A stretch of 64,000 nucleotides of DNA from Buttiauxella sp. B2 (lineage in GTDB: Bacteria; Pseudomonadota; Gammaproteobacteria; Enterobacterales; Enterobacteriaceae), in contig NZ_VEXQ01000013.1 in the NCBI RefSeq assembly GCF_006376615.1, positions 1-64,000 of the forward strand. Direction: 5' to 3'. The position numbers and the translations under genes were made by a program. Below are positions 7,966 to 41,260 of the stretch, piece by piece; position 1 is the first letter of the stretch, and each line of letters begins with the position of its first letter. Under the pieces are notes generated by a model. The model did not search any database. It was not told the DNA's origin and saw nothing but the letters and a program-made list of their open reading frames with translations.

Positions 7966-8682
7966 ATGATTCGTAAGGCTCTGATGGGGGTTCTGCTGCT
8001 TACAGCGATGCAGGCACAGGCTGACTATAAATGCAGTGTCACGCCTCGCGATGACGTGGTAATCAGCCCGCAAACCGTTCAGGTTGTTGGCGAAAATGGC
8101 AATCTGGTTATTGCCCCAGATGGCAGCCTGCAATTTAACGGCAAGCCACAAACTTTAAACGCAACGCAACGCCAATTGGCGGTGAACTATCAGAAAGCGT
8201 TGCGTAGCGATCTCCCATGGATTAACAACGGCGCATTGGCCCGCGTTGAAAAAGGGCGTGTTGCACTGGATAAAATCATCGCCCAGGAAGCCGGTGAGAG
8301 CAGCAATATGCGTGGGCGTCTGACTAAACTCGACGCACAGCTTAAAGAGCAGATGAACCGCATCATTGAAACTCGTCAGGATGGCTTAACCTTCCACTAC
8401 AAAGCGATTGATCAGGTGCGTGCCGATGGGCAGCAACTGGTGAATCAGGCAATGGGCGGCATCTTGCAGGACAGCATCAACGAGATGGGTGCTAAAGCCG
8501 TTCTGAAAGGTGGCGGTAATCCACTGCAAAATGTGCTGGGTAGCCTTGGTGGGTTACAGACTGCGATTCAGAAAGAGTGGAAAAATCAGGAACAAGATTT
8601 CGAACAGTTTGGACGCGACGTATGCAGCAAAGTCGTGACGCTGGAAGGCCAGCGCAAAGGGCTGGTTGAGACTCTGAAGTAA
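7966..8682 (+). CDS. yggN: DUF2884 family protein YggN, predicted periplasmic
   Basis: Function unknown. The 238-residue product matches E. coli YggN (239). A cleavable signal peptide is clear: MIRK, a hydrophobic core to about residue 18, then AQA before DYKCSVTPRDD. The mature part contains RLTKLDAQLKEQMNRIIE and a glycine-rich GGGNPLQNVLGSLGGLQ segment. There is a good AGGAG ribosome binding site at 7955-7959. In E. coli this gene neighbours ansB; here the next gene is leuD, so yggN marks the end of one conserved block and the start of another (see findings). Confidence 0.93.
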   Translation: MIRKALMGVLLLTAMQAQADYKCSVTPRDDVVISPQTVQVVGENGNLVIAPDGSLQFNGKPQTLNATQRQLAVNYQKALRSDLPWINNGALARVEKGRVALDKIIAQEAGESSNMRGRLTKLDAQLKEQMNRIIETRQDGLTFHYKAIDQVRADGQQLVNQAMGGILQDSINEMGAKAVLKGGGNPLQNVLGSLGGLQTAIQKEWKNQEQDFEQFGRDVCSKVVTLEGQRKGLVETLK

Positions 8683-8723: not shown

Positions 8724-9329
8724 TTAACGCATAAACACGGGTTGTTTCTGCTCGTAAGCAGAAATGGAACCTTCGTGTTGTAGCGTCAGGCCAATGCTAT
8801 CCAGCCCTTCTAACATGCAGTGGCGGCGGAACGTATCGATAGTAAACGAGTAACTTTTCTCACCAGCAATCACGGTTTGCGCTTCCAGGTCGACAACGAA
8901 TTTAATCCCCGGATTTGCCGCGACCAGTTTGAACAGTTCATCCACTTCTTCATCGCTTAACGTAACCGGCAATAACTGGTTGTTGAATGAGTTGCCATAG
9001 AATATATCTGCAAAGCTTGGCGCGATAACCACTTTAAAACCGTAATCGGTTAGTGCCCACGGTGCGTGTTCCCGTGAAGAACCACAGCCAAAGTTTTCAC
9101 GCGCCAGCAAAATAGAGGCACCTGTAAACTCAGGGTAGTTCAGCACAAATTCTGGGTTTGGTTGTTGGCCTGCATCATCCAGAAAACGCCAGTCGTTAAA
9201 CAAGTGTGCGCCAAAACCTGTGCGCGTCACCTTCTGCAAAAACTGCTTCGGAATGATTGCGTCGGTATCAACGTTTGCGGCATCCAGCGGAACGACCAGG
9301 CCGGTATGTTGGATAAATTTCTCTGCCAT
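8724..9329 (-). CDS. leuD: 3-isopropylmalate dehydratase small subunit
   Basis: With LeuC, isomerises 2-isopropylmalate to 3-isopropylmalate in leucine synthesis. The 201-residue protein equals the E. coli length. It shows the aconitase swivel-domain features: [11 protein letters not shown] near the N-terminus, [13 protein letters not shown], and [12 protein letters not shown]. It is last in leuABCD, 10 bases after the leuC stop, and is followed by the operon terminator. It sits at the joint to the yggN block; in E. coli the next genes on this side are setA and sgrS/sgrR. Confidence 0.97.
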
Positions 9330-9339
9330 GGTGTTTCCC

Positions 9340-10740
9340 TTATTTCAACGTGCGGATGTCAGCAAAGTGACCTGATACAGCGGCTGCCGCTGCCATTGCC
9401 GGGCTAACCAGATGCGTGCGGCCACCCCGGCCCTGACGGCCTTCGAAGTTACGATTGCTGGTGGAGGCGCAACGTTCACCTGGTTCCAGTCGGTCGTTGT
9501 TCATCGCCAGGCACATAGAGCAGCCCGGTAAGCGCCATTCAAAGCCCGCTTCGATGAAAATTTTATCCAGACCTTCAGCTTCTGCCTGTGCTTTTACTGG
9601 GCCTGAGCCCGGAACGACTAACGCCTGCACACCTGGTGCGACTTTACGGCCTTTGGCTATTGCCGCCGCAGAGCGTAAATCTTCAATTCGCGAATTGGTG
9701 CATGAGCCGATAAATACTTTGTCGATAGCGACTTCGGTCAACGGAATGCCAGGTTTCAGGCCCATATAGGCCAGAGCTTTTTCAGCAGACGCACGTTCTA
9801 CAGGGTCAGCGAAGGATTCTGGGCTAGGGATATTTTCGGTAATGGGAATAACCTGACCTGGATTAGTACCCCAAGTCACTTGAGGTGCGATTTGTGCCGC
9901 ATCCAGTGTCACAGTGTTATCGAATTTAGCGCCTTCATCGGTGCTGAAGGTTTTCCAGTAGGCAACGGCGTTGTCCCAGTCAGCCTCTTTCGGGGCGTGT
10001 AGACGGCCTTTCACATAGTTGAAAGTGGTTTCGTCTGGCGCAACGATGCCCGCTTTGGCACCCATTTCGATGGCCATGTTACACAGCGTCATGCGGCCTT
10101 CCATCGACAGCGCCTGAATTGCGCTACCACAGAATTCTACTACATGCCCGGTGCCGCCAGCGCTGCCAGTTTTACCGATAATTGCCAGTACGATGTCTTT
10201 TGCCGTAATGCCCGCAGCGGCGGCGCCGGTTACTTCAATCTTCATTGTTTTGGCACGGCCTTGTTTCAGCGTTTGCGTCGCCAGAACATGTTCAACTTCG
10301 GAAGTGCCGATACCAAATGCGAGTGCACCGAATGCGCCGTGTGTCGCGGTGTGGGAATCGCCACAAACAATGGTCATGCCCGGCAAGGTAATGCCTTGTT
10401 CAGGACCCATTACGTGGACGATACCCTGGAGTGGATGGTTCAGGTCATACAACTCAACGCCGAACTCTTTGCAGTTTTTCATCAATTCCTGCATTTGAAT
10501 GCGGGCCATTTCACCAGAAGCATTGATGTCTTTAGTCTGCGTAGAAACGTTGTGATCCATGGTCGCAAACGTTTTGCCAGGCTGGCGCACAGGGCGGTTA
10601 TGTGCACGCAAGCCATCAAATGCCTGCGGGGAGGTGACTTCATGCACCAGATGACGGTCGATATACAGCAGTGGCGTTTCATCCACTGCTTGGTACACGA
10701 CGTGGGCATCGTACAATTTCTGATATAACGTCTTCGCCAT
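9340..10740 (-). CDS. leuC: 3-isopropylmalate dehydratase large subunit
   Basis: Catalytic [4Fe-4S] aconitase-family subunit that works with LeuD. At 466 residues it matches E. coli LeuC. Cluster ligands are visible in IGSCTNSR and in [26 protein letters not shown] and [19 protein letters not shown] are the family's substrate and cofactor signatures. It lies 2 bases after leuB, so the two are closely coupled, and 10 bases before leuD. Confidence 0.97.
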
Positions 10741-36493: not shown

Positions 36494-37432
<939 letters not shown>

Positions 37433-37440
37433 CACCAGAA

Positions 37441-37959
37441 TTATTTATTACGACTGGTTTTGTTGGTACTCTCTCCGGCCAATGATGCCAGTCGTTCTAT
37501 TATTGCCTTTAACCTCTCTGGGCTACGTTCCGCCACCATTCTTAATGCCTCTGCACTTTGTTGGCTCAGCACTCTGTTAACCCCTTCAGTTTTAACTTTC
37601 ATTGTCTGAATGCTGTTTTCTTGTACGGATTCTTGCCCAATTGCAGCCAGTGATGGATTAATCCTGATGTCGATTGATGTCAATGATGGTAATATTTGTG
37701 CTCTTAATGCACTCAGTAGCGTGGCTTGTTCGTAGCGTAAACGCATCAGCCAGCTAGCATTTGCAGTTTCAAGTACGAGAATGCCTTGTCGGAAATTTGC
37801 TACCCGGCACCAGGGATGCAGTTGAGCGGGTAATATCCCTTTCACTGCCCTGTTAAGCCGTAGTAGAGCAGTGGCGCGTTGCTGCACGTTTTGCAACACG
37901 CTTTCGGCACCAGCATCATCGAACAAATGCTCTAAAGATTGTGGGCGACTATCACGCAT
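37441..37959 (-). CDS. dciA: DciA-type DUF721 protein (predicted replicative helicase loader/operator)
   Basis: A 172-residue DUF721 protein. Family features seen: [61 protein letters not shown] and a C-terminal helix [16 protein letters not shown]. DciA proteins deliver or regulate the replicative helicase DnaB in most bacteria. In Pseudomonas and Vibrio, as I recall, the gene lies in the same lpxC-secA interval. E. coli K-12 lacks it and uses phage-derived DnaC. Here it is on the reverse strand, converging with lpxC (8-base gap) and divergent from secM (22-base gap), with GGAG 9 bases before the ATG. Whether it still acts on DnaB in an organism that may also have DnaC cannot be told from this window. 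The frame is intact and well conserved in composition, so it is not an obvious pseudogene. Confidence 0.8.
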
Positions 37960-37981
37960 ACATAATGCTCCGGCGGATAAA

Positions 37982-38488
37982 GTGATTGGTATTCTAAATC
38001 GTTGGCGACAGTTTGGCAGACGTTATTTCTGGCCGCATCTCATATTGGGGATGGTCGCGGCGAGTTTTGGCATGCCTGCGCTTAGCCAAAATACTGAGCC
38101 AACAGCCCCGGCGGAAACCTCCACCAGTAGCCACGATTACCTCAATAAGGTTAGCTTTAATAGTCTGGCATTATTGCAGGAAAGTACTCGTCGACCATCA
38201 TTTAGTGTCGATTACTGGCATCAGCATGCTATTCGCACAGTTATTCGTCACCTTTCTTTTGCTATGGCACCTCAAACCCTGCCAGTAGCCCAAGAGAGTT
38301 TGCCTCTTCAGGCACATAAACTCGCATTACTCGATACGCTCAGCGCGCTTCTTACCCAAGAAAGTAAACCGCCTGTTATCGTACGTCGTACCACGCTTTG
38401 GCAGCCACCTGCTGTCGAGGCCTTCAGTCCTGCCATTTGGATTAGCCAGGTCCAGGGTATCCGCGCAGGTCCTCAACGCCTCAGCTAA
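37982..38488 (+). CDS. secM: Secretion monitor SecM (secA translational regulator)
   Basis: Exported regulatory peptide whose translation arrest exposes the secA ribosome binding site when secretion is slow. The GTG start at 37982 gives 168 residues (E. coli 170, also GTG) and begins [19 protein letters not shown]; the longer upstream frame runs back over dciA and is rejected. A signal sequence with [15 protein letters not shown] lies at about 20-37. The arrest motif [17 protein letters not shown] at 148-164 retains every residue of F-x4-WI-x4-GIRAGP, with Pro164 the stalling proline. The stretch just before it, [15 protein letters not shown], differs from E. coli. secA begins 66 bases later. 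Confidence 0.93.
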
Positions 38489-38554: not shown

Positions 38555-41260
38555 ATGCTAATCAAATTATTAACTAAAGTTTTCGGTAGTCGTAACGATC
38601 GCACCCTGCGTCGTATGCGTAAAGTTGTCACCCTGATTAACAGCATGGAACCGGAAATTGAAAAACTTTCCGATGATGAGTTGAAAGCAAAAACTGGTGA
38701 GTTCCGCGCGCGTCTTGCGAAAGGCGAAGTGTTGGAAAATCTGATTCCAGAAGCTTTTGCTGTTGTTCGTGAAGCAAGTAAGCGTGTTTTCGGTATGCGT
38801 CACTTCGACGTACAGCTGCTTGGCGGCATGGTACTGAACGATCGTTGTATTGCAGAAATGCGTACCGGTGAAGGTAAAACACTGACTGCGACACTACCTG
38901 CTTATCTGAATGCCTTGAGTGGCCGTGGTGTCCACGTTGTTACTGTGAACGACTACCTGGCGCAGCGCGATGCTGAGAACAACCGCCCTCTGTTCGAATA
39001 CCTGGGATTAAGCGTCGGTATCAACTTACCTAACATGCCAGCATCTGCAAAGCGCGAAGCTTATGCAGCTGACATTACTTACGGCACTAACAACGAATAC
39101 GGTTTTGACTATCTGCGTGACAACATGGCGTTTAGCCCAGAAGAGCGTGTGCAGCGTAAACTTCACTACGCATTGGTGGATGAGGTTGACTCAATTCTTA
39201 TCGATGAAGCGCGCACACCACTTATCATCTCCGGCCCTGCTGAAGACAGCTCCGAGATGTATAAGAAAGTAAACAAAATCATCCCAAGCCTTATCCGCCA
39301 GGAAAAAGAAGATTCTGATACTTTCCAGGGTGAAGGCCACTTCTCCGTGGACGAAAAATCTCGTCAGGTAAACATTACGGAACGCGGTCTGGTGCTGGTT
39401 GAAGAGCTGCTGGTTCGTGAAGGCATCATGGAAGAAGGTGAGTCACTTTATTCACCAACCAATATTATGTTGATGCACCACGTGACTGCCGCGTTGCGCG
39501 CACATGTTCTGTTCACCCGTGACGTTGACTACATCGTGAAAGACGGCGAGGTTATCATCGTTGATGAACATACCGGTCGTACCATGCAAGGTCGTCGTTG
39601 GTCTGATGGCCTGCATCAGGCAGTCGAAGCCAAAGAAGGTGTCGATATTCAGAACGAAAACCAGACTCTGGCATCCATCACCTTCCAGAACTACTTCCGC
39701 CTGTATGAAAAATTAGCAGGTATGACAGGTACTGCGGATACCGAAGCGTTCGAGTTCAGCTCTATCTATAAGCTCGATACCATCGTTGTGCCAACTAACC
39801 GTCCAATGATTCGTAAAGACATGCCTGATTTGGTCTACATGACTGAAGTAGACAAGATTGCTGCGATTATCGAAGACATTAAAGAACGTACTGCCAATGG
39901 TCAGCCAGTGTTGGTGGGTACCATTTCTATCGAGAAATCTGAGGTCGTCTCTGCTGAGTTGACCAAAGCTGGTATCAAACACAACGTTCTGAATGCCAAA
40001 TTCCACGCGAACGAAGCAGGTATTGTTGCTCAAGCGGGTTACCCTGCTGCGGTGACCATTGCGACGAACATGGCAGGTCGTGGTACGGATATCGTATTGG
40101 GTGGTAGTTGGCAGGCAGAAGTTGCTGAGCTTGAAAACCCAACGCCTGAACAAATTGCGCAGATTAAAGCTGACTGGCAAATTCGCCATGACGCGGTTCT
40201 GACGTCTGGTGGTCTGCACATCATCGGTACAGAACGTCACGAATCTCGCCGTATCGATAACCAGTTACGTGGTCGTTCTGGTCGTCAGGGTGACGCGGGT
40301 TCATCTCGCTTCTACCTGTCTATGGAAGATTCCCTGATGCGTATTTTTGCATCGGATCGCGTTTCAGGCATGATGCGTAAACTGGGCATGAAGCCAGGCG
40401 AAGCCATTGAGCACCCATGGGTGACCAAAGCGATTGCTAACGCACAGCGTAAAGTTGAAAGCCGTAACTTTGATATCCGTAAACAGCTTCTTGAATACGA
40501 TGATGTGGCAAACGACCAGCGCCGCGCGATCTACAGCCAGCGTAACGAATTGCTGGATGTGAGCGACGTTAGCGAAACCATCAATAGCATCCGCGAAGAT
40601 GTCTTTAAAGTGACTATCGACGCGCACATTCCACCGCAATCGCTGGAAGAAATGTGGGATGTTGAAGGACTGGAAGAACGTCTGAAAAACGACTTTGACC
40701 TCGAACTGCCAATTAAAGAGTGGCTGGATAAAGAGCCTGAACTGCACGAAGAAACTCTGCGCGAGCGTATTTTGCAAAACGCTATCGAAGTGTATAAGCG
40801 CAAGGAAGAAGTTGTTGGCATTGAAATGATGCGTCATTTCGAAAAAGGCGTCATGCTGCAGACACTGGACTCACTGTGGAAAGAGCACCTGGCAGCAATG
40901 GATTATCTGCGTCAGGGTATCCACTTACGTGGTTATGCACAGAAAGATCCGAAGCAAGAATACAAGCGTGAATCCTTTGCTATGTTTGCATCCATGCTTG
41001 AAGCGCTGAAATATGAAGTGATCAGTACGCTCAGCAAGGTGCAGGTTCGTATGCCTGAAGAAGTCGAAGCAATGGAGCAACAGCGTCGTGAAGAGGCTGA
41101 TCGTCTGGCACAGATGCAACAGCTGAGCCATCAGGATGACGACACGCTTGCTGCTGAAGCATTGGCTGCGGAAACGGGTGAGCGCAAAGTGGGTCGTAAC
41201 GACCCGTGTCCATGCGGTTCTGGTAAGAAATTCAAACAGTGTCATGGTCGTTTGAGCTAA
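38555..41260 (+). CDS. secA: Protein translocase ATPase SecA
   Basis: Motor of Sec-dependent export. The 901-residue protein matches E. coli SecA. Walker A is in [14 protein letters not shown], the DEAD-type motif in [14 protein letters not shown], and the second helicase domain carries [13 protein letters not shown] and [15 protein letters not shown]. The C-terminal zinc domain [14 protein letters not shown] binds SecB and lipid. Expression is coupled to SecM translation immediately upstream. Confidence 0.98.

Follow-up and report, generated by a model that had tools for sequence, protein, structure and literature searches.

The window, a stretch of 64,000 nucleotides from Buttiauxella sp. 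B2, carries between lpxC and secM-secA a reverse-strand frame that appears to overlap signals of both neighbors (Table 1). The initial annotation had read this frame as a DUF721 protein and thus as DciA, and the profile search bears this out: the DciA family PF05258 scores 62.4 bits against a curated cutoff of 24 (E=4.7e-17), matching residues 20-98 of the protein with positions 12-89 of the 89-position profile. One further Pfam family matches below threshold, and the AAA+ domain of DnaC/DnaI (PF01695) is absent. Residues 2-162 can be aligned with V. cholerae DciA (chain C of the DnaB-DciA complex, PDB 8a3v; E=9.4e-17), and the product is basic (pI 10.31; 23 Lys and Arg versus 16 Asp and Glu). 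The DNA is of Buttiauxella rather than of E. coli: the nearest loci are those of Buttiauxella, which take the top nine places among 80 named relatives (the best 80 of 115 related stretches) at 95-97% identity, and the GGAG upstream of dciA also occurs in 25 loci listed. According to the available text of PMC5109545, the dciA of beta- and gammaproteobacteria is flanked by secA and lpxC; the place that was proposed to be ancestral is the one expected of a gammaproteobacterial dciA. The proposed loss of dciA from E. coli K-12 likewise agrees with its lpxC-secM gap, in which nothing is annotated and no dciA fragment was found at E<=0.01. Judged by its sequence, the gene is an ordinary, functional-looking, conserved dciA, and its product belongs to the DciA family. 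It has in common with the DciA proteins of PMC5109545 and 8a3v the family score, the lpxC-secA locus, the basic character, the predicted KH-like N-domain, and a putative C-terminal helix pair, and, as with them, no resident dnaC was found alongside it. Nothing sets Buttiauxella DciA apart, and as such it is expected from that 2016 publication, whose main text nowhere mentions Buttiauxella, Cedecea, or secM, nor the terms remnant, vestig-, or pseudogene.

Table 1. Features of the lpxC-secA interval, in window coordinates
Feature	Position	Strand	Remarks
lpxC	36515..37432	+	convergent to dciA; 8 bases between the two stop codons
dciA	37441..37959	-	172 aa; ATG to TAA, frame open; Pfam and PDB matches
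lpxC terminator hairpin	37450..37495	+	antisense to last dciA codons; loop ACTCTCTCCG at 37468-37477
Extended -10 TGGTAATAT of likely secM-secA promoter	37687..37695	+	antisense to dciA codons ~88-91 (Gln-Ile-Leu-Pro)
Likely dciA ribosome-binding site GGAG	37968..37971	-	8 bases before ATG
secM	37982..38488	+	GTG start at 37982; divergent; 22 bases separate secM and dciA start codons
Likely dciA promoter CTGCCA-17-TAGAAT	37991..38019	-	within first secM codons; 9/12 matches
secA	38555..41260	+	
DciA protein parts			predicted KH-like N-domain, residues ~20-102; variable linker, 103-128; predicted C-terminal helix pair, 133-160

In a structure model built from 37 aligned sequences (mean pLDDT 72.7), a predicted KH-like N-domain is followed by a loose linker and then by two predicted C-terminal helices. 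Block means of pLDDT are 84-92 for residues 21-100 and only 63-70 for the helices at 133-145 and 147-160; the alignment to V. cholerae DciA reaches residue 162. Chains of the 8a3v complex take the first two places among the PDB matches (8a3v_D, E=1.8e-9; the next, 7.6e-9), the whole-model TM being only 0.50 with an rmsd of 11, and Deinococcus DciA ranks fifth with its DUF721 domain (7ykm, E=0.033). By analogy with solved relatives, we infer that Buttiauxella DciA binds DNA and DnaB: the KH-like N-domain would contact both, while the C-terminal helix pair would dock on the LH-DH module of DnaB and promote placement of the ring at oriC. In P. aeruginosa, DciA binds DnaB and is essential for initiation (PMC5109545), and the available text of PMC9912922 has both DnaC and DciA binding the LH-DH module.

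The last dciA codons coincide with a hairpin on the opposite strand that folds at -22.9 kcal/mol in the window, versus -9.2 for shuffles. Six of the 93 DciA loci compared are second copies of named contigs, leaving as distinct loci 87 with DciA, 47 with DnaC, and two with neither; the loop, ACTCTCTCCGG or a close variant, is found in 133 of these 136 (98 exact), namely, in 87/87, 45/47, and 1/2, respectively, and is absent from L133, L134, and L135. It mostly lies 30-51 bases after the lpxC stop and in ten loci farther away, up to 242 bases. When the stems were compared in 44 of the 45 loop-bearing DnaC loci (L091, a near-copy of E. coli, was left out), 97.5% of cells pair and 10 of the 13 pairs have changed on both sides, which 0 of 500 shuffles reach, and sliding the partners by 1-3 columns lowers pairing to 11-48%. 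A covariance model gives 40.6-83.6 bits in 15 loop-bearing loci and at most 25.5 elsewhere in 0.94 Mb, save on the opposite strand of the same palindrome and at a weak match in L133 (28.3); scores are lower in Yersinia and Photorhabdus (40.6-45.4) than in the window (66.9). Rfam gave no match at the hairpin in the window, its E. coli matches lying elsewhere, and a generic terminator scan restricted to loops of 3-8 did not list it. In E. coli the same hairpin (L087:2495-2555) occupies the same place, that of a termination site 3′ of lpxC with ~91% efficiency in the available text of PMC10349824, whereas in Buttiauxella the opposite strand of the hairpin is also part of the dciA coding sequence. 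Most DnaC genomes have an uninterrupted U-run; interruptions occur in G119, in G126, and in DciA genomes, where the run codes for Glu-Arg. The C/U-rich loop is almost invariant, a degree of conservation well beyond what a simple terminator ought to require; as a speculation, the loop could pair with purine-rich ribosome sites.

A second opposite-strand element, the extended -10 of the likely secM-secA promoter, lies in mid-gene. Its pattern (TGNTANNATYY) is present 282-301 bases before secM in all 87 distinct DciA loci and 38-119 bases before it in 42 of the 47 DnaC loci, where mononucleotide shuffles lead one to expect 3.9/93 and 1.7/47. A promoter scan found no -35 for this element and did not list the secM promoter itself; a start site before secM is reported for E. 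coli (PMC10349824, available text). Leu90 is encoded by TTA in the window and by TTA or CTA in all 86 other distinct loci, versus 34% for other Leu codons, and Ile89 by ATA in 59/86, versus 21% for other Ile codons. Synonymous variation in dciA is lowest at codons ~87-103 and 154-172, and the first of these stretches varies as little as the terminator overlap does. This dip is wider than the -10 element, which therefore leaves part of it unexplained, and a further signal may lie within these codons. The third element is the likely promoter of dciA itself. The scan returned 2 sites against 0.8 in shuffles, a chance-like rate that makes this promoter weak when taken alone, but TARAAT stands at the -10 spot in 82 of 87 distinct DciA loci versus 2 of 46 DnaC loci (L129 was not evaluable), and the secM Leu codon at that spot is CTA or TTA in 82/87 DciA loci versus CTG in 27 of the 34 DnaC loci that have Leu. 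Loss of the dciA -10 is seen in the Enterobacteriaceae group, in the Erwiniaceae group, and in G126, and G119 retains the variant of its DciA-bearing Erwinia relatives. Since the loci are related, these counts are not independent events.

From these comparative sequence patterns dciA looks interlocked with both neighbors, through a terminator in its 3′ codons, a secM -10 in mid-gene, and its own -10 inside secM, and its own DNA apparently serves the two neighbors as on/off signals as well. The hairpin and the -10 could instead be mere shadows of protein conservation, with no signals on the opposite strand, inasmuch as DciA residues 155-163 and 89-102 are highly conserved. We consider this unlikely: both elements persist in most genomes that lack dciA (the loop in 45/47 and the -10 in 42/47 DnaC loci), the stems show compensatory changes, and synonymous positions within these stretches vary unusually little in DciA genomes, down to the TTA or CTA of Leu90 in 86/86. 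In nearly all dciA-less genomes examined the terminator and the secM -10 persist, whereas the dciA -10 is gone from most.

Among 392 family genomes, DciA was found in 182 and a DnaC match (E<=1e-10) in 212, such that 152 have DciA only, 182 DnaC only, 30 both, and 28 neither; this distribution repeats, on other genomes, the dciA-or-dnaC pattern in Enterobacteriales that PMC5109545, in its available text, published in 2016 for 1,426 proteomes. The genomes with neither loader are 0.2-1.2 Mb in 26 of the 28 cases, the exceptions being G039 (2.4 Mb) and G355 (5.4 Mb). G039, which branches with Serratia, holds a dciA fragment (residues 85-121) in its lpxC-secA gap (L134), where no SecM match was found. 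The 5.34-Mb chromosome of G355 (genus code g125) gave no DciA, DnaC (best E 0.0049), or lambda-P match; the yjj-opgB/dnaTC neighborhood was not found in the stretch followed from 155 to 512 kb, and ~160 kb separates the counterparts of window positions 8666 and 8728.

On a species tree of ftsZ, lpxC, and secA (88 rows), markers that flank dciA, DnaC genomes appear in a large Enterobacteriaceae group, in an Erwiniaceae group, and at G126; the Erwiniaceae DnaC group adjoins DciA-bearing Erwinia, with G119 unresolved beside the other eight. The fewest state changes on this tree are four, and the hypothesis that all DnaC genomes form a single clade is rejected (p-AU 9.5e-6, with three long rows dropped and G355 counted with DnaC); resident DnaC proteins nonetheless form one clade. 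The resident dnaTC adjoins yjjB and/or yjjA-opgB in the 12 Enterobacteriaceae loci examined, a gene that we take to be tag in five Erwiniaceae loci, and genes that are presumably purE and lpxH in G126 (L180, dnaT-dnaC at 9097-10406). Because one domesticated dnaTC lineage thus occupies three kinds of site in three lineages, the swap looks repeated, and a ready-made cassette moving between lineages would account for it more simply than one early gain followed by long coexistence of DciA and DnaC, of which the 392 genomes offer no clear case. We posit that a lineage gains a domesticated dnaT-dnaC cassette, upon which dciA would decay while the terminator and the secM promoter stay. The L180 site was not seen in the other loci examined, and DnaB there has Ser299.

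In G119, an Erwinia-group genome with DnaC, a decayed C-terminal half of dciA lies between lpxC and secM (L124, 2426-2641 on the minus strand; query residues 87-171, 49% identity), and its sequence suggests a loader swap caught late in progress. Weaker fossils occur in L125, L127, L131, and L134. Short dciA-tail "fossils" in many other DnaC genomes were rejected, being the terminator element; only these five loci show more. Neither such fossils in DnaC genomes, nor a repeated cassette swap, nor the interlock of dciA with its neighbors was met in the literature searched, which covered few subscription papers.

The tree also bears on whether DciA was regained in Buttiauxella after an ancestral switch to DnaC. 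Buttiauxella and Cedecea branch near the DnaC-bearing Enterobacteriaceae, and the branch that places them outside that group has moderate support, with an SH-aLRT of only 90 or 77 in two trees. Such a reversal is nevertheless distinctly unlikely, as the place, the strand, and the interlocked signals of dciA match those of the Yersinia, Serratia, Pectobacterium, and Photorhabdus loci, no dnaTC remnant was found between yjjB and yjjA, and DnaB is still of the Ser299 type.

DciA is probably the sole chromosomal DnaB loader of the cell. Buttiauxella seems to have retained this old loader and never to have acquired its phage-derived replacement, DnaC. A PF01695 profile search of the genome returned DnaA as its sole match and no DnaC; E. 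coli DnaC found nothing better than E 0.0049 there and, at a threshold of E<=1e-10, nothing in six congeneric genomes. The genome being a draft of 75 contigs, the absence of dnaC rests partly on the agreement of these six. The yjjB-yjjA interval, which in E. coli is the site of dnaTC, measures 871 bases in Buttiauxella, and a protein search detected no dnaT or dnaC match in it at E<=1; the frame that it holds is, from its look, presumably a TetR-type regulator. The DnaC/DnaT of E. coli K-12 would have the same job as DciA, loading of DnaB, but DciA lacks PF01695 and dnaTC was not found in the Buttiauxella genome. On another contig than dciA, a DnaT-domain gene lies beside a lambda-P-like gene (PF06992) in L085 (G000:C12:229000-247000), a stretch that looks like a prophage and in which we recognized by eye what we take to be terminase, portal, repressor, and recombination genes. 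This pair was rejected as a second chromosomal loader on account of its prophage setting. By its family name the lambda P-type protein is, like DciA, a DnaB loader; it differs in family, in being prophage-borne, and in location, and it could act on DnaB when the prophage is induced. A search for lambda-P loaders that covered 13 of the 28 genomes lacking both DciA and DnaC, with the present genome as a positive, recovered the latter's prophage copy alone.

The initial annotation had raised the possibility of two helicase-loading systems, with DciA retained in a residual or specialized role beside DnaC, and had proposed a search for dnaC and dnaT. As a description of this genome, coexistence of the two is very improbable. 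It could draw on the adjacent lambda-P-like and DnaT-domain genes and on the 30 of 392 family genomes in which DciA occurs with a DnaC-like gene; against it, no DnaC was found in the genome or in the six genus genomes searched, the dnaTC site is empty, and the DnaT-domain gene, with its lambda-P-like partner, sits in the prophage-like stretch. The DnaC matches of the 30 genomes, moreover, share no more than 52% identity with E. coli DnaC, versus 62-99% among the matches listed (weaker ones, E ~1e-96 and worse, include symbionts). In a DnaC tree, 11 of them form, together with L173 from G281, a clade of 12 phage-type copies that stands apart from 23 resident copies (100/100); G281 is without DciA, and its own resident dnaC reads in pieces. 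In a phage collection, 426 of 429 matching records lie below 60% identity, the best of these at 50.6%, and the other three, at 94%, are one 5-kb record and two Salmonella contigs.

A residual or specialized role for DciA is likewise not supported. The dN/dS of dciA is 0.047 over 45 Buttiauxella pairs and, for the window, 0.072 against nine Buttiauxella loci, 0.105 against 10 Cedecea/Dryocola-group loci, and 0.129 against four JGM124/BIGb0407-group loci, a range (0.05-0.13) far below 1; the corresponding values for secM are 0.047, 0.042, 0.091, and 0.115, and those for lpxC, ftsZ, and secA lie at 0.006-0.037. That dciA is a relic under relaxed selection is scarcely conceivable, for although its dN/dS exceeds that of lpxC, ftsZ, and secA, it is near that of secM (0.042-0.115), the N-domain has a dN of 0.007 versus a dS of 0.263 between the window and Buttiauxella, and no frame is broken in the 87 distinct sequences. 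None of the 93 frames has an internal stop, and of the three observations that the initial annotation had named as refuting its reading (no DUF721 match, relaxed selection, and broken frames) none was made.

Position 299 of DnaB (E. coli numbering) is the column that best separates 31 sequences, with Ser in 14/14 DciA genomes, Buttiauxella sp. B2 included, and Gly in 15 of 17 DnaC sequences. The available text of PMC9912922 describes a DH-helix residue, Ser or Gly, that separates DciA from DnaC helicases, and from its place beside Trp294 we infer that column 299 is the residue meant. The misfits among the 17 are G119 (Ala) and G126 (Ser). G119, whose Ala is of neither the DciA nor the DnaC type, holds the best-matching dciA fossil seen among DnaC genomes (E=2e-16), and G126 combines Ser299 with a fossil at E 5.8e-8, as if the swap in these two were young; G086, which already has Gly299 with a fossil at 4.4e-8, speaks against a strict clock of DnaB change. 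The idea that the two misfits are the two best-fossil genomes was rejected, since the fossil of G086 is on par with that of G126, and the case for a late DnaB change thus rests mainly on G119. The docking helix of DnaB would have been altered from Ser299 to Gly, perhaps after the swap. The available text of PMC9912922 also reports that, in vitro, the E. coli helicase can be loaded by V. cholerae DciA and the V. cholerae helicase by E. coli DnaC, so that residue 299 is no absolute bar.

Taking the results jointly, we are confident that the best explanation is a vertically inherited dciA that is probably the sole loader, looks interlocked with its neighbors, and decays elsewhere after a gain of dnaT-dnaC. 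A broader reading, which we advance tentatively and would put slightly below an even chance, adds antisense coupling to the three-way overlap. Because the secM-secA promoter lies in mid-dciA, secM-secA transcription would run antisense through the first half of dciA and could couple the supply of the helicase loader to secretion and envelope genes; a mobile, already domesticated dnaTC cassette would have broken this lock at least three times, the docking residue of DnaB would have adapted afterwards, and the lpxC terminator loop ACTCTCTCCG would have kept a further job after dciA loss. The available text of PMC5109545 treats as an open question what keeps dciA and dnaC from coexisting. With 87% identity, Buttiauxella DnaB is close to the DnaB of E. 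coli K-12, yet it should work with a different loader, and the surrounding lineages display swaps of seemingly different ages, some with fossils; together, similar helicases with different loaders and swaps of various ages make the question testable by loader exchange. Finally, the fossils in L124, L125, L127, and L131 keep the two dciA pieces in which synonymous variation is lowest, and the interlock suggests why the larger fossils retain these same two.
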